The notes beneath the pieces were generated by a model that saw only the letters and a program-made list of their open reading frames with translations, did not search any database and had not been told where the DNA came from. 64,000 bases of DNA from Candidatus Sulfotelmatobacter sp. Lineage in GTDB: Bacteria > Acidobacteriota > Terriglobia > Terriglobales > Acidobacteriaceae. Position 1 is the stretch's first letter. Each line of letters begins with the position of its first letter. The position numbers were made by a program, and so were the translations under genes. Positions 2,976-16,164 of this stretch are shown here, piece by piece. Location: positions 62,001 through 126,000 of the forward strand of contig JADGNQ010000001.1 in assembly GCA_017883385.1 (NCBI GenBank), read 5' to 3'.

Positions 2976-3839
2976 ATGGCCAAAACATTAGATTCGCGGG
3001 TGTGGAGCATAGTAACAGTCCTGTGCGCCTGTTGCGCTGTGTGCGTCATGGCGGGAGCCGAGGATCTCCCCAGAGTAGCCCTAGCTTCGCCGCTCGATCA
3101 CGGGTTCTCCGGCCTCTACAATCTCGATTTCGTGGGGGCACAGAAGGATTTTGCAGCGTGGCAAACGCAGCATCCCGATGATCCGGTGGGCCCGGTCAGC
3201 GAAGCGGCGGGCTTCTTGTTTTCGGAGTTCAACCGATTGGGAGTGTTGGAGGCGCAGTTCTACGAGAATGACGACGCATTCACAGATCGGCCAAAACTGA
3301 AGGCCGATCCGGCACTCCGAGAACGGTTCCAGGTCGCGATCGGGCGGGCGGAAACCTTGGCGCATGCTCGGCTGGCAAAAGATCCCAAAGATCGCGATGC
3401 GCTCTTTGCCCTGACCTTGTCATCAGGCCTGCAAGCCGACTACGCGGCGCTCATCGAAAAGCGGAACCTGGCCTCTCTGCACTTCACGAAGAAAGCCTCC
3501 GCCTCGGCGCAGCAGTTGCTGGCAGTTTGTCACGATTGCTACGACGCGTTGCTGGCAACCGGCTTCAGCAAGTACATCATTGGCAGCATGGCAGCTCCGG
3601 TGCGCTGGATCCTTCGCATGGGAGGCTTGCCCGCCGACAAGCAGGGCGGCATTGCCGACTTGCAAACGACGGCCGAGCATGGGCATTACCTCGCGCCATT
3701 TGCGCGAATTTTGTTGGCGATCGCTTACGTCCGGGAGAAAGATAAGCCGAAAGCTCTGCAGCTGCTTACCGGGTTGCGCAGCGAGTTCCCTGGCAATACG
3801 CTGTTTCCGCGTGAGATTGCGCGCTTGGCAGGCCACTGA
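2976..3839 (+). CDS. Exported TPR-like hypothetical protein
   Basis: 288-codon frame with N-terminal signal-like segment (MAKTLDSRVWSIVTVLCACCAVCVMAGAED) and helical-repeat-like body. The longer ORF from 2373 overlaps GH15 antisense. Confidence 0.7.
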   Translation: MAKTLDSRVWSIVTVLCACCAVCVMAGAEDLPRVALASPLDHGFSGLYNLDFVGAQKDFAAWQTQHPDDPVGPVSEAAGFLFSEFNRLGVLEAQFYENDDAFTDRPKLKADPALRERFQVAIGRAETLAHARLAKDPKDRDALFALTLSSGLQADYAALIEKRNLASLHFTKKASASAQQLLAVCHDCYDALLATGFSKYIIGSMAAPVRWILRMGGLPADKQGGIADLQTTAEHGHYLAPFARILLAIAYVREKDKPKALQLLTGLRSEFPGNTLFPREIARLAGH

Positions 3840-3927
3840 GGGCGCCGCAAAAGGCCTTCGTCCTCGAACTGTTTTTCCACTGACAAAGCCATTCTTTCCG
3901 CGGTTCATTCATCAGAAATTCACCCGT

Positions 3928-3945
3928 TTGTAACCCTCCTGTAAC
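3928..3945 (+). promoter_or_regulatory. Candidate Pho box (TTGTAAC-N4-CTGTAAC) upstream of pstS
   Basis: Two 7-mers spaced 11 bp apart, 48 bp before pstS; same architecture at 12708-12725 before pstC. Confidence 0.55.
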
Positions 3946-3993
3946 ACCGCGCCGATAGAACGAGGACATCGATACCTAAGGAGGAATTACCTG

Positions 3994-5013
3994 GTGATGC
4001 GCAAAATCGTCCTGCTGTTGGTGTGCGGCCTCTTGACCCTGTCGGCCGTGGGGCAGACTACGCTGAACGGAGCCGGCGCGACGTTCCCCTATCCGATTTA
4101 CTCGAAGTGGTTCAGCGAATACCATAAGATCCATCCCGAGGTTCAAATCAACTATCAGTCCATCGGAAGCGGCGGCGGAATCCGCCAGGTAACGGAAGCA
4201 ACGGTCGAGTTTGGCGCCAGCGACATGCCCATGACCGACGATCAGCTTAAAGAAGCCAGCACCAAGCTCAAGACCAAGGTACTCAACCTTCCGACGGTTC
4301 TGGGCGCCGACGTGCCTGCCTACAACATCCCGGGTGTGACCGGCGAAGTGAAGTTCACTCCAGAAGTCCTGGCCGGAATTTTTCTGGGTAGGATTTCGAA
4401 CTGGAATGACGCGGCCATCGCCAAGGACAATCCGGGCGTGAAGTTCCCCAATCAGGAGATTGTGGTTGTCCACCGTTCCGACGGCAGTGGGACGACGTTC
4501 ATCTGGACTGACTACCTTTCCAAAGTCAGCCCTGATTGGAAGAGCCAAGTGGGCGCCAACACTTCGGTGAAGTGGCCCAAAGGGCTCGGTGCAAAAGGCA
4601 ACGAAGGGGTGTCCGGGTCGATTCGGCAACTGCCGGGCTCCATCGGCTACGTTGAGCTGATCTATGCCGTGCAAAACAACATCCCGTACGGCAGCGTGAG
4701 AAACTCCGCCGGCGTGTTCGTGAAAGCGACGCTGGAAGGCGTATCTGCGGCTGCGGCTTCAGCTCCGAAAATGCCCGCAGATTTCCGCGTCTCCATCACC
4801 AATGCTCCAGGGAAGGACGCCTATCCGATTTCGAGTTTCACGTGGCTTCTGATTCCGGCGCAATCGAAGGACGCAGCGAAGGGTAAGATCCTGGCCGACT
4901 TTCTGAACTGGATGGTCACGGACGGCCAGAAAATGACATCTGCGTTGGCTTACGCGTCTCTGCCGGATACCGTGGCGGCGAAAGAGAAAGACACAATCAA
5001 GCTGGTCAAGTAA
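3994..5013 (+). CDS. pstS: Phosphate ABC transporter substrate-binding protein
   Basis: LNGAGATFPYPIYSKWFSEY, INYQSIGSGGGIRQV, VVHRSDGSGTTFIWTDYLSKVS; AAGGAGG RBS upstream. ATG at 3997 is an alternative start. Confidence 0.97.
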   Translation: MMRKIVLLLVCGLLTLSAVGQTTLNGAGATFPYPIYSKWFSEYHKIHPEVQINYQSIGSGGGIRQVTEATVEFGASDMPMTDDQLKEASTKLKTKVLNLPTVLGADVPAYNIPGVTGEVKFTPEVLAGIFLGRISNWNDAAIAKDNPGVKFPNQEIVVVHRSDGSGTTFIWTDYLSKVSPDWKSQVGANTSVKWPKGLGAKGNEGVSGSIRQLPGSIGYVELIYAVQNNIPYGSVRNSAGVFVKATLEGVSAAAASAPKMPADFRVSITNAPGKDAYPISSFTWLLIPAQSKDAAKGKILADFLNWMVTDGQKMTSALAYASLPDTVAAKEKDTIKLVK

Positions 5014-5059: not shown

Positions 5060-6862
5060 GTGATGATGAAGGCTGCGTGGAAGGTGTGTGCAATTCTGTT
5101 TCTGGCGACGGCGCTGGTCGGGCAAACCAGCACCGCGACCAAACCTAAGAAGGCTGCGGCGCTGACGGCGGCAGACGTACAGTCGCTGAAGGACGCGATT
5201 GCGTCCCAGCAAGCTGCTCTGGCGCAGCAGCAGCAACAGATTCAGGAACTGCGCGATGAGTTGCGCCACAAGGATCAGACCGTACAGCAGGCCCAGACCG
5301 CCGCCAGCGATGCTGCGGGCAAAGCGGACGCGGCGCAGGCTCAAGCTGCGCAGCAACAGGAAACGGTCACCGTGCTGAAAAGCGACGTGACCGACCTGAA
5401 GAGCGGGATGGCTAACACCGTCATGACGCTGCAGGAGACGCAGAAGAGCATTTCGGATCCTCCCACGGCGCTCCATGTGAAAGGGATCACGATCACACCG
5501 GGCGGTTTCCTGGCGGCCGAATTTGTGCGCCGCTCGCGGGCGCTGGGTTCGGATATCAACACGCCATTCAACAGCATCACCATGCCTGGCGCATCAGCCA
5601 GCACCATGTCAGAATTCTTCGGTTCTGGCCGCCAGTCGCGCGTGTCTATGCTCGCGGAAGGCCGGTTGAAGAGCGCGAAGGTGACGGGCTATGTGGAAGC
5701 TGACTTCCTCTCCGCGGGCGTGACCTCCAACAACAACCAGAGCAACAGCTACACGATGCGGCAGCGTCAGGTGTGGGGTCAGGCAGCCTTTGACAACGGG
5801 TGGAGCTTCACCGGCGGGCAGATGTGGAGCCTGGTCACAGAGACCAAACACGGCGTGGACAACCGCACAGAAGCGCTGCCCATGACCATCGACGCGCAGT
5901 ATAACGTTGGTTTCAGCTGGGCACGTCAGTATGGGCTGCGCGTGGCGAAGAAATTCGGCAACAAGGCCTGGTTGGCGGTCTCGATGGAGAACCCGCAGGC
6001 TACCGTCACCACTCACAACAACGGCAACAATTTCTTAGTGGGTTCGGTCGGAACAGGCGGCGGGCTCTACAACCTCAACGCCAATTACTCATTCAACCCA
6101 TCGCCCGACATTGTAGCCAAGCTCGTGTTTGAGCCCGGCTTCGGACACTACGAAATCTTCGGAGTGTACAGCCGTTTCCGCGATCGCGTCTTTCCTTGCG
6201 GCGAGGCGTCGGCGACCTTCCCCTGCGGACCGGCGGGCGCGGACACTACGCCGAACGCATCCGGAGCCTTCAACAGTTCCAAGAACGGCGGCGGCATTGG
6301 TGCTAATGTCCGGTGGTCGTTCATGAACAAGCGCCTCGACTTCGGGTTGCATGGCTTCGGGGGCAGCGGAGTGGGTCGCTACGGATCCGGCGGGCTCCCC
6401 GACGCGTCGGTTCGTGCAGACGGAACGCTGGATCTGGTCAAGAGCTATCAGGGCCTGACTACTCTCGAGTGGCACGCACGGAAGGTTGATGTCTACTTCA
6501 ACGTAGGAGCTGAGTATGCCAGCCGTGCGGCTGGCTTTGATCCGTTTACCAATAAATATGTGGGGTACGGTTCTCCGAACTTCGCCAACTCGGGATGCTA
6601 CACCGAGATTCAGCCGGGTGCGGGAGGTTTTGCGGCCGGCGGTTTGGCCAATTGCACCGCCGACACACGCTTCCTCGTGGAGGGAACCGCGGGGTTCTGG
6701 TTCAAGCTGTACGATGGCTCGAAGGAAAAGGTAAACCGGGGCCGAGTGCAGTGGGGACCGCAGTTCTCGTACGTCGATCGCAACACGTGGTCAGGTGTAG
6801 GCGGGGAGCCGCACGGACTGGACGGCATGATCTTCACGTCGTTCCGTTATTACCTGCCATAG
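5060..6862 (+). CDS. DcaP-like outer-membrane porin with N-terminal coiled coil
   Basis: Signal peptide, Gln-rich coiled coil (QQAALAQQQQQIQELRDEL), then beta-barrel-like sequence ending FTSFRYYLP. Confidence 0.75.
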   Translation: MMMKAAWKVCAILFLATALVGQTSTATKPKKAAALTAADVQSLKDAIASQQAALAQQQQQIQELRDELRHKDQTVQQAQTAASDAAGKADAAQAQAAQQQETVTVLKSDVTDLKSGMANTVMTLQETQKSISDPPTALHVKGITITPGGFLAAEFVRRSRALGSDINTPFNSITMPGASASTMSEFFGSGRQSRVSMLAEGRLKSAKVTGYVEADFLSAGVTSNNNQSNSYTMRQRQVWGQAAFDNGWSFTGGQMWSLVTETKHGVDNRTEALPMTIDAQYNVGFSWARQYGLRVAKKFGNKAWLAVSMENPQATVTTHNNGNNFLVGSVGTGGGLYNLNANYSFNPSPDIVAKLVFEPGFGHYEIFGVYSRFRDRVFPCGEASATFPCGPAGADTTPNASGAFNSSKNGGGIGANVRWSFMNKRLDFGLHGFGGSGVGRYGSGGLPDASVRADGTLDLVKSYQGLTTLEWHARKVDVYFNVGAEYASRAAGFDPFTNKYVGYGSPNFANSGCYTEIQPGAGGFAAGGLANCTADTRFLVEGTAGFWFKLYDGSKEKVNRGRVQWGPQFSYVDRNTWSGVGGEPHGLDGMIFTSFRYYLP

Positions 6863-7450: not shown

Positions 7451-9610
7451 ATGGCTCGTATTTCGCTCGACAATCCACAGTACTACCTCAATCGCGACAC
7501 TTCCTGGCTCGCGTTCAACCGGCGTGTGCTCGAAGAGGCCGAGGATGAGGGCAACCCGCTTCTGGAGCGGTTGAAGTTTCTGTCGATTTCGGCGAGCAAC
7601 CTGGACGAATTCTTCGAAGTGCGCGTGGCTGCCATGGTGCAGCAGATCGAGGATGGATACAACGAGGCCGGTCCCGATGGCCTGACCTTGACTGAAAAAC
7701 GCGATCTGCTGAACAAGTTGACCCACGAATTCGTCGACGACCAGTATGACTGCTGGAATGCGCGGTTGCGTCCGGCGCTCTCGGAGAACGGAATTCGCGT
7801 GCTGGGCTTGCACGAGTTGGACTCCGACGCGCTGCGCTTCGTCGACGAATACTGCGAAAAGGAATTGGATCCTCTTCTTACGCCAGTGACTGTCGATCCG
7901 GCCCATCCCTTTCCACGGGTCATCAATAAGGCGCTGTGCGTGGGTTTTCTGTTGCGGCGGCGCCGGCGCTCGGCGCTGACCTACACCGGCGTCGTATCGG
8001 TCCCGCGAGCCTTGCCCCGGCTCGTGAGGCTGCCTTCGGAGGGCACTGCCGACTTCATATTCCTGGCGGATCTGGTCGCGCATCACGCCGTACGGATGTA
8101 TCACGGCTATGACATTGTTTCGTCGGCGCCCTTCCGAGTGACGCGCAACAGCAACCTCTATCTGGCAGAAGAGGAGGCGCGCAGCCTGCTGGAGTCGGTC
8201 CGCGCCGAGTTGCATAACCGGCGCAAGGGCGACGCCGTGCGCATGGAGATTGAAGCCGATGCCGATCCGGAGATTATTGACCGGTTACGTACGGTCTTCG
8301 AGCTTGATCCCTGGCAGGTGTTTCCGGTCAACGGGCCGGTTAACCTTTCACGCCTGTTCAATGTCTACGAGCAAGTGAAGCGGCCGGACCTCAAGTACCG
8401 CATTTTTTCGCCGCGCGAACTGCGGTTGACCTCGAAGTCGAAGGACTTGTTCGAGGAGTTGCGCGGGCACGACATCCTGCTGCATCACCCGTACGACTCT
8501 TATGATGCCGTGGTTTCGTTTATTGAGTCCGCGGCCGCGGACGAGCGTGTCCTTTCCATCAAACAGACTCTCTACCGTACTAGCGAACATTCCCTGATTG
8601 TGCCTTCTCTCATGGACGCCGCGTCCCGCAAGGAAGTCACGGCCGTTGTCGAACTCAAGGCTCGTTTCGATGAGGCCTCGAACATCCGCTGGGCCCGCGA
8701 TCTGGAAGACGCGGGTGTGCAGGTCTTCCACGGGTTGGTTGGGTTGAAGACTCACTGCAAGCTGTCGCTGTTGGTGCGGCGCGATCCGGATGGCGTGACC
8801 CGCAGTTATGCGCACATTGGTACCGGGAACTACAACACTACGACGGCTCGGATTTACACCGACCTCAGTCTGTTCACGGCGAATCCGGAAGTTACACGTG
8901 CGGTGCATGATGTGTTCAGCTTCCTGACCGCGTACGCCGAGAACCCCAGCTACGACCCGCTTCTGGTAGCTCCGCTCGATCTAGCAGAAAAATGTATCGC
9001 GCTGATCGAACGCGAAGCTGAGCACGCGCGCCAGGGGAAGGAGGGCCGCATTATCGCGAAGATGAATGCGCTCCTCGACAAGAACATTGTGCAGGCGCTG
9101 TATCGCGCTTCCCAGGCGGGGGTGGAGATCGACTTGATTGTCCGTGGCATTTGCGCACTCCGTGCGGGCGTGCGGGGGGTCAGCGATCACATTCGCGTGC
9201 GCAGCATTGTGGGGCGATTCCTCGAGCATAGCCGCATCTACTATTTCGCGAACGGCGGCGAAGAAGAGATCTACATGGGAAGCGCGGACTGGATGCCGCG
9301 CAATCTGTACGAGCGCGTCGAGGTGCTAGTGCCGCTGCGCGACGAGATGCTGCGGGAACGGGTGCGGCATGAGATTCTGGATGCCTACCTGGCCGACAAC
9401 CGCAAGGCGCGCTTGTTGCTCCGCGATGCGACCTATATCCGAGCCTGGCAGCCGTTGCAAGGCAGACGGAACCGTAAGCCGCCGACCGGAGCTGCAGCTT
9501 TCAGTTCGCAGGATTTCCTGATCAGCGTCGCGGAAGGGAAGCCTCCTGCTGGCTTGCCTGCAGCGGCTCCGCTGCGCAAGCGTAGGGTGCTAATGGGAAA
9601 GGAACGATAG
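7451..9610 (+). CDS. ppk1: Polyphosphate kinase 1
   Basis: YLNRDTSWLAFNRRVLEEA, SASNLDEFFEVR, HHPYDSYDAVVSFIESAA, HIGTGNYNTTTARIYTDLSLFTA. Confidence 0.97.
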   Translation: MARISLDNPQYYLNRDTSWLAFNRRVLEEAEDEGNPLLERLKFLSISASNLDEFFEVRVAAMVQQIEDGYNEAGPDGLTLTEKRDLLNKLTHEFVDDQYDCWNARLRPALSENGIRVLGLHELDSDALRFVDEYCEKELDPLLTPVTVDPAHPFPRVINKALCVGFLLRRRRRSALTYTGVVSVPRALPRLVRLPSEGTADFIFLADLVAHHAVRMYHGYDIVSSAPFRVTRNSNLYLAEEEARSLLESVRAELHNRRKGDAVRMEIEADADPEIIDRLRTVFELDPWQVFPVNGPVNLSRLFNVYEQVKRPDLKYRIFSPRELRLTSKSKDLFEELRGHDILLHHPYDSYDAVVSFIESAAADERVLSIKQTLYRTSEHSLIVPSLMDAASRKEVTAVVELKARFDEASNIRWARDLEDAGVQVFHGLVGLKTHCKLSLLVRRDPDGVTRSYAHIGTGNYNTTTARIYTDLSLFTANPEVTRAVHDVFSFLTAYAENPSYDPLLVAPLDLAEKCIALIEREAEHARQGKEGRIIAKMNALLDKNIVQALYRASQAGVEIDLIVRGICALRAGVRGVSDHIRVRSIVGRFLEHSRIYYFANGGEEEIYMGSADWMPRNLYERVEVLVPLRDEMLRERVRHEILDAYLADNRKARLLLRDATYIRAWQPLQGRRNRKPPTGAAAFSSQDFLISVAEGKPPAGLPAAAPLRKRRVLMGKER

Positions 9611-12707: not shown

Positions 12708-12725
12708 TTTTAACACCTTTGTAAC
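12708..12725 (+). promoter_or_regulatory. Candidate Pho box (TTTTAAC-N4-TTGTAAC) upstream of pstC
   Basis: 11-bp-spaced direct repeat ending 25 bp before pstC; matches 3928-3945. Confidence 0.55.
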
Positions 12726-12749
12726 AAGTCTCTGCTAGGGTAGCCACGA

Positions 12750-13784
12750 ATGGCCAACAAAGCATTACCACGGCCTGATATGCCCGGTCCGCAACCCGTT
12801 GAACAGACGAAGGTTACATCCGTACCGGTGCAGCCGGCAGCGCCCCTTCTGCGCGCCTCCGGGGGCGAGGTGCCCGACCGCATTTTCAAGTCTGCGATGA
12901 CCGCATGCGGTTTGGCCGTTCTTGCTGTGTTGGCCGTCATCGTCTACGAGCTCATATCGGGGTCCAGACTCTCTTGGCACGCATTCGGGTTCAAGTTCTT
13001 CGCGGCCAGCGATTGGGACCCGGTCAACGAGCACTTCGGCGCCTTGCCATTCATCTACGGGACGCTGGTTTCTTCGCTATTGGCGCTCATCATTGCGGTT
13101 CCCCTGGCCGTGGGCGTTGCCGTATTCACCACCGAGATGTGCCCCAAAGGGTTGCGCGGACCACTCTCGTTTTTCGTGGAGTTGCTGGCCGCCATTCCCA
13201 GCGTGATCTACGGTCTTTGGGCGATGTTTGTACTTGTGCCTCTTCTAGGCCAGCATGTGCAACCCTACCTGCAGCGGACTCTCGGCTGGACGACGCTATT
13301 CGATGGTCCTCCTATCGGTTACTCGATGCTCGCGGCGGGGATCATCCTGGCCATCATGATTGTCCCCATCGTTTCGTCGATCACCCGGGAAGTGCTCATG
13401 GTCGTGCCCCAGCACCAGCGCGAGGCTGTGCTAGCGCTGGGAGCCACCCGGTGGGAGATGATCCGCATCGGCGTGCTGCGCAATGCACGAGCCGGAATCC
13501 TGGGGGGAATCATTCTCGGACTGGGCCGTGCGCTGGGCGAGACCATGGCCGTGACTATGGTGATCGGAAACAACCCGCAGATTGCCAAGTCGCTGTTCGC
13601 TCCCGGATACACCATGGCGAGCGTCATGGCGAACGAGTTCAGCGAGGCCACCGGCGATGTCTACATTTCGTCGCTAATCGAGATTGGGTTGGCGCTATTC
13701 CTGGTCACGATTGTCGTGAATGCGCTGGCGCAACTACTGGTGTGGACAGTGACGCGTGGCCAGCCTGCGAGGGGTAATGCCTGA
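12750..13784 (+). CDS. pstC: Phosphate ABC transporter permease PstC
   Basis: LVSSLLALIIAVPLAVGVAVFTTEM, GLGRALGETMAVTMVIGN. Confidence 0.96.
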   Translation: MANKALPRPDMPGPQPVEQTKVTSVPVQPAAPLLRASGGEVPDRIFKSAMTACGLAVLAVLAVIVYELISGSRLSWHAFGFKFFAASDWDPVNEHFGALPFIYGTLVSSLLALIIAVPLAVGVAVFTTEMCPKGLRGPLSFFVELLAAIPSVIYGLWAMFVLVPLLGQHVQPYLQRTLGWTTLFDGPPIGYSMLAAGIILAIMIVPIVSSITREVLMVVPQHQREAVLALGATRWEMIRIGVLRNARAGILGGIILGLGRALGETMAVTMVIGNNPQIAKSLFAPGYTMASVMANEFSEATGDVYISSLIEIGLALFLVTIVVNALAQLLVWTVTRGQPARGNA

Positions 13785-14658
13785 GGCTACCGTGACCACT
13801 GCCCTCCACTCGGTGCCGCCCATCAGTTTGCGGCGTCGCTTTACCGACCACCTCATGACCGGCGTGGCCGTGCTGACGGTGCTGCTCGTGCTGGCTCCGT
13901 TGGTTGCCATTTTCGGCTACCTCGTCTACCGGGGCGTTGGGGCCATCGACTGGGCGTTTCTGACACAGACTCCGAAGCCTGTCGGCGAGTCGGGTGGAGG
14001 CATGGCGAACGCCATCGTGGGTTCGGCCCTGATCCTAGGCATCGCCAGCCTGGTCGGCGTGCCCTTCGGCGTCGGTGCGGGAATTTACCTGGCAGAGTTC
14101 GGACGGAACAGCATGGGCAGGGCAATTCGCTTCACTGCTGACGTGCTCAACGGTGTGCCATCGATTGTGATCGGTGTTGCGGCTTATGCCATGCTGGTTC
14201 TTCACCGGCATTTCTCCGCACTCGCGGGCGGCGTGGCGCTCGCGATTATGATGGTGCCGACGATCAGCCGGACTACAGAAGAAATGCTGCTTCTGGTGCC
14301 GCAGGCATTGCGCGAGGCCGCCTATGGGCTCGGCGTTCCGCGCTGGCGAACCACGCTCTCCATTACACTGCGCACCGCGACCTCTGGGGTGATTACGGGA
14401 GTCATGCTGGCCTTCGCCCGCGTCGCCGGGGAGACGGCGCCCCTCCTTTTTACAACGTTGGGCAATACATTCTGGAATCTGCACATAGACCAGGCCACGG
14501 CAGCGTTGCCCCTCCAGATCTACGTGTACGCGAATTCGCCCTATGACGACTGGCACCGCCAGGCATGGGCGGGAGCGTTTGTGCTCATCGTTCTCATTGT
14601 CACAGCCGTAGCGGCCGTGCGCTATGCTGTGCGGCGTGGCACGTTTGGAGCGGCATAA
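13777..14658 (+). CDS. pstA: Phosphate ABC transporter permease PstA
   Basis: ATG at 13777 overlaps the pstC stop; VGVPFGVGAGIYLAEFG, AFARVAGETAPLLFTTLGN. Confidence 0.95.
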   Translation: MPEATVTTALHSVPPISLRRRFTDHLMTGVAVLTVLLVLAPLVAIFGYLVYRGVGAIDWAFLTQTPKPVGESGGGMANAIVGSALILGIASLVGVPFGVGAGIYLAEFGRNSMGRAIRFTADVLNGVPSIVIGVAAYAMLVLHRHFSALAGGVALAIMMVPTISRTTEEMLLLVPQALREAAYGLGVPRWRTTLSITLRTATSGVITGVMLAFARVAGETAPLLFTTLGNTFWNLHIDQATAALPLQIYVYANSPYDDWHRQAWAGAFVLIVLIVTAVAAVRYAVRRGTFGAA

Positions 14659-14661
14659 CTT

Positions 14662-15420
14662 ATGGGCGTGGGAATCCAGGTCGAGAGCCTGAATGCGTGG
14701 TACGGCAAGGGCCAGGCGTTGTACGACATCAATCTGAAGGTGGCCGCGAATCATGCTACAGCGCTGATCGGTCCCTCGGGATGCGGGAAATCTACGTTTA
14801 TTCGCTGCCTGAACCGAATGCACGAGACCATTCCCGAGGCGCGGGTGGAAGGCCGGGTCCGCATCGGGGAAATCGACGCCTACAACGGAACCTCTCCCAC
14901 ACAACTGCGCCGCCGTGTGGGCATGGTCTTCCAGAAGGCGAACCCGTTTCCCACCATGTCGATTTACGACAACGTGGCGTCAGGGTTGAAGCTCAACGGA
15001 TTCCGCGACCGGCGCAAGCTGGACGAAATCGTCGAACGTTCGCTCGAAGCGGCAGCGCTGTGGAGCGAAGTGAAGGACAACGCACACAAGAAATCCGGCG
15101 CTAGCCTCTCCGGCGGTCAGCAGCAGCGGTTGTGCATTGCACGGGCACTGGCGGTTGAACCGGAGGTTCTGTTGATGGACGAGCCCTGCTCGGCCCTCGA
15201 TCCGATTTCGACCGGAAAAATTGAGGAATTGATCTTCCAGCTCAAAGAGCGGTATACCATCGTGATTGTGACGCACAACATGCAGCAGGCGGCGCGGGTG
15301 GCTGAGTTCACGGGGTTTTTCCTGCTGGGCAAGCTGATTGAGTTCGACAAGACCGAAAAGATTTTCACCAAGCCGTCAGACAAGAAGACGGAAGATTACA
15401 TTACAGGCAGATTTGGATAA
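14662..15420 (+). CDS. pstB: Phosphate ABC transporter ATP-binding protein
   Basis: Walker [11 protein letters not shown], signature [16 protein letters not shown], Walker [14 protein letters not shown]. Confidence 0.98.
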
Positions 15421-15450: not shown

Positions 15451-16164
15451 ATGCGCACGCGCTTTCAGCTAGGGCTTGACGATCTGCGACAACGGTTGCT
15501 TCGCATGGGAGGACTGGCGGAGCAGGCGGTGGATCGCTCTCGCCAGGCGTACGTGGAACGCGACCTCACCCGGTGCCAGATGGTGCTGGAAGGCGAGAGT
15601 CTGATCAATACCGCCGAACGCGAAATCGACGAGGCTGCGTTTGACCTGCTCGCGATGCAGCAGCCCATGGCGGTCGACCTGCGATTCATTCTGGCTGTAA
15701 CCAAGATCAACTCCGATCTTGAGCGCGTCGGCGACCAGGCGGTCAACATCGCCGAACGCGTGATGGACATGGTGGAACTTCCTGCTGCTGACCTACCGGT
15801 CGACATCGCACGCATGGGCGCGGCGGTCAGTGCCATGGTGAGGCGGGCACTGGAGTCCTTCATCGAAGGCAAGGTGGAACTGGCACAAGCTGTGCTTGAA
15901 ATGGACAGTGTGATCGACCGTATGCGCGACGACGCCTTCATCCAACTGGTCAAGACCATGAACGAGCGGCCTGACGTCGTGAGGCAGGCGCTGGATGCGC
16001 TGCTCGTAGCGCGGAATCTGGAACGGGTTGCAGACCACGCCACCAACATCGCCGAGGATGTCATCTTCTGGGTGCAGGGCGCCGACGTCCGCCACAACGT
16101 GCATCCCGAGGAATCGGAGAGCCAGGAGTCGGAGCGGCCGACGTCGCGAGCTTCCGGACTGTAG
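15451..16164 (+). CDS. phoU: Phosphate uptake regulator PhoU
   Basis: LRLMGGLAEQAV-like start, MAVDLRFILAVTKINSDLERVGDQAVNIAERV, ARNLERVADHATNIAEDVIFWVQG. Confidence 0.96.
   Translation: MRTRFQLGLDDLRQRLLRMGGLAEQAVDRSRQAYVERDLTRCQMVLEGESLINTAEREIDEAAFDLLAMQQPMAVDLRFILAVTKINSDLERVGDQAVNIAERVMDMVELPAADLPVDIARMGAAVSAMVRRALESFIEGKVELAQAVLEMDSVIDRMRDDAFIQLVKTMNERPDVVRQALDALLVARNLERVADHATNIAEDVIFWVQGADVRHNVHPEESESQESERPTSRASGL

Follow-up and report, generated by a model that had tools for sequence, protein, structure and literature searches.

The phosphate uptake genes of the acidobacterium Candidatus Sulfotelmatobacter sp. fall into two groups within the window, the 64,000-nucleotide stretch of DNA analysed here, and each group is preceded by a pair of heptamers of the same layout. 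This raises the question of whether the two pairs are Pho boxes, the direct-repeat operators of PhoB-type regulators, and which regulator would read them. The first group opens with pstS, encoding the phosphate-binding protein (3994-5013; TIGR00975, 380.7 bits against a cut-off of 205 bits), while the second consists of pstC (12750-13784; TIGR02138, 308 bits), pstA (13756-14658; TIGR00974, 276 bits), pstB (14662-15420; TIGR00972, 374 bits) and, next to them, phoU (15451-16164; PF01895), all on the forward (+) strand. The four Pst proteins score above their NCBIfam cut-offs, which upholds the calls of pstS and pstC made in a preliminary description of this DNA. Between pstS and pstC lie a putative porin gene (5063-6862, + strand), the polyphosphate kinase gene ppk1 (7451-9610, + strand), a SixA-like gene and divergent ppx and CHAD genes. 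Given these intervening genes, the divergent pair included, pstS and pstCAB-phoU belong to different transcription units, each of which needs a promoter of its own. No box was found in the window region before ppk, ppx, the CHAD gene, the porin gene, pstB or phoU, so that these genes either ride on the pst transcripts or escape Pho control; for the porin gene, co-transcription with pstS is likely. Directly upstream of pstS, positions 3018-3839 encode a conserved protein without a family match, homologues of which also precede the box at three loci in relatives (L150, L205 and L207).

At pstS, the preliminary description quoted TTGTAAC-CCTC-CTGTAAC at 3928-3945, 48 bp before the gene, and both the sequence and the distance to the GTG start codon at 3994 are exact. 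The pair is present, yet alignment of relatives shows that the true extent of the site is four half-sites plus a -10 hexamer. The full operator spans 3906-3945 and begins with CATTCAT (3906-3912) and AATTCAC (3917-3923), which were absent from the preliminary description, followed by TTGTAAC (3928-3934) and CTGTAAC (3939-3945), which match its motif exactly; all four half-sites are kept in relatives. They are spaced at 11 bp and separated by the 4-bp spacers CAGA, CCGT and CCTC, and the last stands in the place of a -35 element, with the -10 hexamer TAGAAC (3956-3961) exactly 10 bp downstream. A ribosome-binding site, GGAGG (3980-3984), is found 9 bases before the GTG. The pstC site has two clear repeats of the same kind, TTTTAAC (12708-12714) and TTGTAAC (12719-12725), around the spacer ACCT, again exactly 10 bp from a -10 hexamer, here TAGGGT (12736-12741). 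Its sequence is as previously quoted, but the gap between 12725 and the pstC ATG at 12750 is 24 bp, not 25. These elements all lie on the + strand.

The best PhoB match of the genome is encoded on another contig, C62, and scores 242 bits against TIGR02154, below the equivalog cut-off of 296, so that its assignment is by best match and context. This context includes a PhoR-like histidine kinase gene directly following the regulator gene, and in relatives, orthologues of the C62 pair are found directly upstream of pstS. The DNA-binding domain of the C62 protein is 38% identical to that of E. coli PhoB; its recognition helix is little changed (YVTPRSVDVYVRRIR against YVEDRTVDVHIRRLR in E. coli), and the T-V-R-G-x-G-Y-R-F wing is retained. 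Judged from sequence, the C62 PhoB-PhoR pair is thus the likely reader of the pst sites. The genome encodes many OmpR-family regulators, among them a second PhoB-like protein on contig C359, and the repeats could be operators of such a regulator with the same DNA-binding mode. The C359 protein scores close to the C62 protein against PhoB (230 vs 242 bits), its gene follows phoU (L100), and a candidate box, the repeat-like sequence AATTCAT-CGTT-CGTTAAC-AATC-GAGAAAC-ATTC-GCGCAAC, precedes the regulator gene. However, an adjacent kinase is found at the C62 protein and not at C359, and regulators encoded next to pstS or to a box in relatives share more identity with C62 (74-84%) than with C359 (59-62%), making a different regulator an unlikely explanation. 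The two proteins may nevertheless share sites. Autoregulation is a possibility in two other genera of the family (L206 and L210), where a conserved Pho-box-like site in opposite orientation lies 30 bp away from the start codon of phoB.

A search of both strands of the 6.8-Mb genome for the motif of the preliminary description, TTNTAAC-N4-NTGTAAC, gave two exact matches, namely the two pst sites; occurrence at background frequency, named at the time as grounds against an operator, was accordingly not found. With one mismatch allowed, the whole genome holds six matches in total against 10 for the reversed control, an absence of enrichment for which the plain 7+4+7 motif was rejected as a genome-wide scan at this tolerance. 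Among the one-mismatch matches, those at C283:62828 and C231:36824 look like real boxes in sequence. The bare motif is weakly specific, and the case rests on position and conservation. A profile built from 25 relatives, with the window left out, ranks the pstS site of the window first in the genome (E 9e-14), followed by a site on C283 (E 0.002) and one on C421 before a PF04185 phosphoesterase gene (E 0.06). Within the genus, matches to the profile with E no higher than 0.1 were obtained in 40 of 41 genomes, and the 29 top profile loci examined all precede pstS or the porin family. The longer pattern TTCAY-N4-YTGTAAC-N4-YTGTAACA, allowing one mismatch, gave 42 matches in 34 of 100 family genomes, as opposed to none for the reversed control and a single match when one spacer was made a base too long; as members of this family had served to design the pattern, these counts measure specificity within genomes rather than discovery. 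Of the family loci examined, 28 of 30 stand before pstS or pstC, bearing out the enrichment before pst genes in related genomes that had been proposed as a check. The element is thus found before phosphate-starvation genes and is rare elsewhere.

The same searches bear on whether the pstS site alone is a real operator, with the pstC repeat a chance resemblance near an ordinary promoter. The pstC site has two half-sites only and scores weakly against the pstS-derived profile (E 0.84, rank 8 in the genome search). Yet it is one of just two exact motif matches genome-wide, and relatives sharing the split gene order carry TTTTAAC-N4-NTGTAAC before pstC, or close forms such as TTTTAAC-N4-TGTTAAC, in most cases with the same spacing to a -10 of the form CTGCTAG or CTGCTAC. 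A chance origin of the pstC repeat is therefore very unlikely. Because upstream half-sites are not conserved at pstC in these relatives, the operator there is shorter, and the pstC site is a two-half-site version of the pstS operator.

Conservation was followed in two collections that share some genomes and are thus not fully independent. The first comprised the pst regions of 60 other genomes of the order, where the motif occurs within two mismatches upstream of pstS in 31 of 60, compared with 0.39 expected from dinucleotide shuffles. Exact TGTAAC pairs upstream of pstS in these 60 genomes are seen at period 11 only, of 16 periods tested, in agreement with the 11-bp periodicity originally claimed. 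In the relatives' alignment, the four half-sites are followed by 10 bp and a -10 with a TAnAA core, a column block conserved in 35 genomes, while 25 of the 60 regions upstream of pstS do not reach a loose four-half-site score, several of them still showing weaker repeats. The second collection consisted of 45 pstS loci from metagenome-assembled genomes named Candidatus Sulfotelmatobacter, Acidobacteriaceae, Terriglobia or Acidobacteria, and all 45 have the motif within two mismatches. Here, the mean information content is 0.09 bits per base 5' of the box, against 1.48 and 1.80 bits in half-sites 1 and 2, neither of which was used for anchoring the alignment, and 1.48 bits in the -10; in all 45 of these closer loci, conservation drops to background just 5' of half-site 1. 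The preliminary description would have counted a lack of conservation upstream of orthologous pstS and pstC against an operator, and conservation is seen at both. While common descent explains part of the likeness between close relatives, two readings can be dismissed, a repeat arisen by chance and a promoter or leader element conserved without a regulator, as the controls by shuffling, reversal and wrong spacing yield values of zero or close to it, the box flanks are not conserved and the box recurs at unrelated loci. A phylum scan with the pstS profile gave matches in its own family only; looser tandem repeats ending in TGTAAC precede pstS in several families elsewhere in the phylum, and an absent profile match therefore does not equal an absent Pho box.

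In this Candidatus Sulfotelmatobacter-like acidobacterium, both sites thus very probably serve as Pho boxes, direct-repeat operators of the PhoB-type regulator in its phosphorylated form. This reading follows from the operator layout, the placement relative to the -10, the conservation before pstS and pstC across the family and the recurrence before other plausible phosphate-starvation genes, and together with the PhoB-PhoR pair, it supports the PhoB/PhoP-type operator first suggested. The observations behind it are of sequence, spacing, conservation, gene context and the presence of PhoB and PhoR, and from these we infer PhoB binding, dependence on phosphate and a difference in strength between pstS and pstC. 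Since the architecture is that of E. coli PhoB promoters, activation under phosphate starvation is most likely at both pst promoters. When phosphate is scarce, PhoR would phosphorylate PhoB, molecules of which would bind the 11-bp repeats head to tail, replace the -35 contact and recruit RNA polymerase to the -10 hexamer that follows after 10 bp. The four half-sites of the pstS promoter would accommodate two PhoB dimers and the two clear half-sites of the pstC promoter one, so that the two pst transcription units would be induced together, pstS probably more strongly.

Related genomes also carry the box before DcaP-like porin genes, PF04185 phosphoesterase genes and a second pstS. In the genome studied here, the C421 site (C421:16037; L113) reads AATTCAC-ACAA-CCTTAAC-TCCG-CTGTCAC-CGGG-CTTTAAC, followed by TAGGGT, before a PF04185 phosphoesterase gene, and the four-half-site arrangement is also found in a genome of the same genus (G070; L166). 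The C283 site (C283:62806-62845; L006 and L112) is likewise a four-half-site box, TTGTAAC-CTCT-GGTTCAT-AAAT-CTGTAAC-CTCT-CTGTAAC, without a clear downstream gene. This box and the start of a divergent sulfotransferase-like gene overlap, in the vicinity of a polysaccharide-export cluster; the box may be inert, or it may promote expression of a small RNA or a small protein. The porin gene behind pstS (5063-6862) encodes a product without a Pfam or NCBIfam family match, apart from coiled-coil noise. Its low-confidence structural model (mean pLDDT 56) shows a long helix at the N-terminus and a body rich in beta strands, with the DcaP outer-membrane channel (6eus) as the best PDB fold match and the phosphate porin OprP further down. 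Homologues are found at many loci (L149, L151-L153, L155-L157, L159-L161, L164, L168, L208 and L209), those of genus members often behind a four-half-site box of their own, and in several genus genomes, the second strong profile match precedes such a homologue. Because of these boxes, and with the fold taken from the model, the protein is plausibly an outer-membrane channel of the phosphate-starvation response.

Literature searches found no description of a Pho box or Pho operators in Acidobacteria in the searchable literature. On sequence grounds, the element would be a Pho box of known kind, well conserved, in a phylum for which a published description was not found. While the mechanism itself is expected biology and not surprising, Acidobacteria are abundant in phosphorus-poor soils, and once validated, an operator profile would make it possible to read the phosphate-starvation regulon from environmental genomes. 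Regulon members indicated by the profile so far are a new porin family and several phosphoesterases. It could further be speculated that Acidobacteriota have a Pho-operator grammar of their own, with a distal TTCAY pair, a proximal TGTAAC pair and spacers lacking A/T richness, so that two PhoB dimers load in order, and with a regulon including an undescribed DcaP-like porin family as phosphate-starvation channel, a tentative proposal against which we lean slightly.

Among known systems, the same design is seen in the Pho box of E. coli, where PhoB binds head to tail on 11-bp direct repeats overlapping the -35 region (PMC4415409, PMC3348028) and 10 bp separate the repeats from the -10 downstream (PMC1906773). 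Like the Pho box of E. coli pstS and phoA, the acidobacterial sites have heptamer repeats, 4-bp spacers, a period of 11 bp and several half-sites at pstS, as well as a -10 about 10 bp downstream, a location before pst genes and an encoded PhoR-PhoB pair. The spacers differ in not being A/T-rich (CAGA, CCGT, CCTC), and the half-sites are TTCAY in the distal and TGTAAC in the proximal pair, whereas the most conserved half-site of E. coli is CTGTCAT (PMC4415409). None of the pst half-sites has this consensus, which is not required outside enterobacteria; since the Pho-box consensus varies by species (PMC4415409), CTGTCAT is not a defining feature of a Pho box. The cyanobacterial SphR box also consists of 11-bp tandem repeats before pst genes, and its T-T-A-A-C core resembles the TTTTAAC of the pstC site, but its consensus is CTTAACCT, usually in three repeats. 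The Streptomyces PhoP box (GTTCACC repeats) shares the 11-bp direct repeats and a TTCAC core equal to the distal half-sites here, yet its consensus in a review (PMC4415409) lacks the TGTAAC half-site class. The preliminary description saw a departure from E. coli and perhaps a lineage-specific form, and the preference for TGTAAC is indeed regular here. However, TGTAAC half-sites are also found among E. coli PhoB ChIP sites, e.g., GGTCATCAATCTGTAACA and TGTAATAGTTCTGTAACG (PMC10294691), and at proteobacterial pstS loci, which mostly have CTGTCAT or CTGTCAC, sometimes mixed with TGTAAC. The acidobacterial half-site is therefore a shift within the known range, and the sites are best read as Pho boxes of the standard type in which TGTAAC takes the place of TGTCAT.
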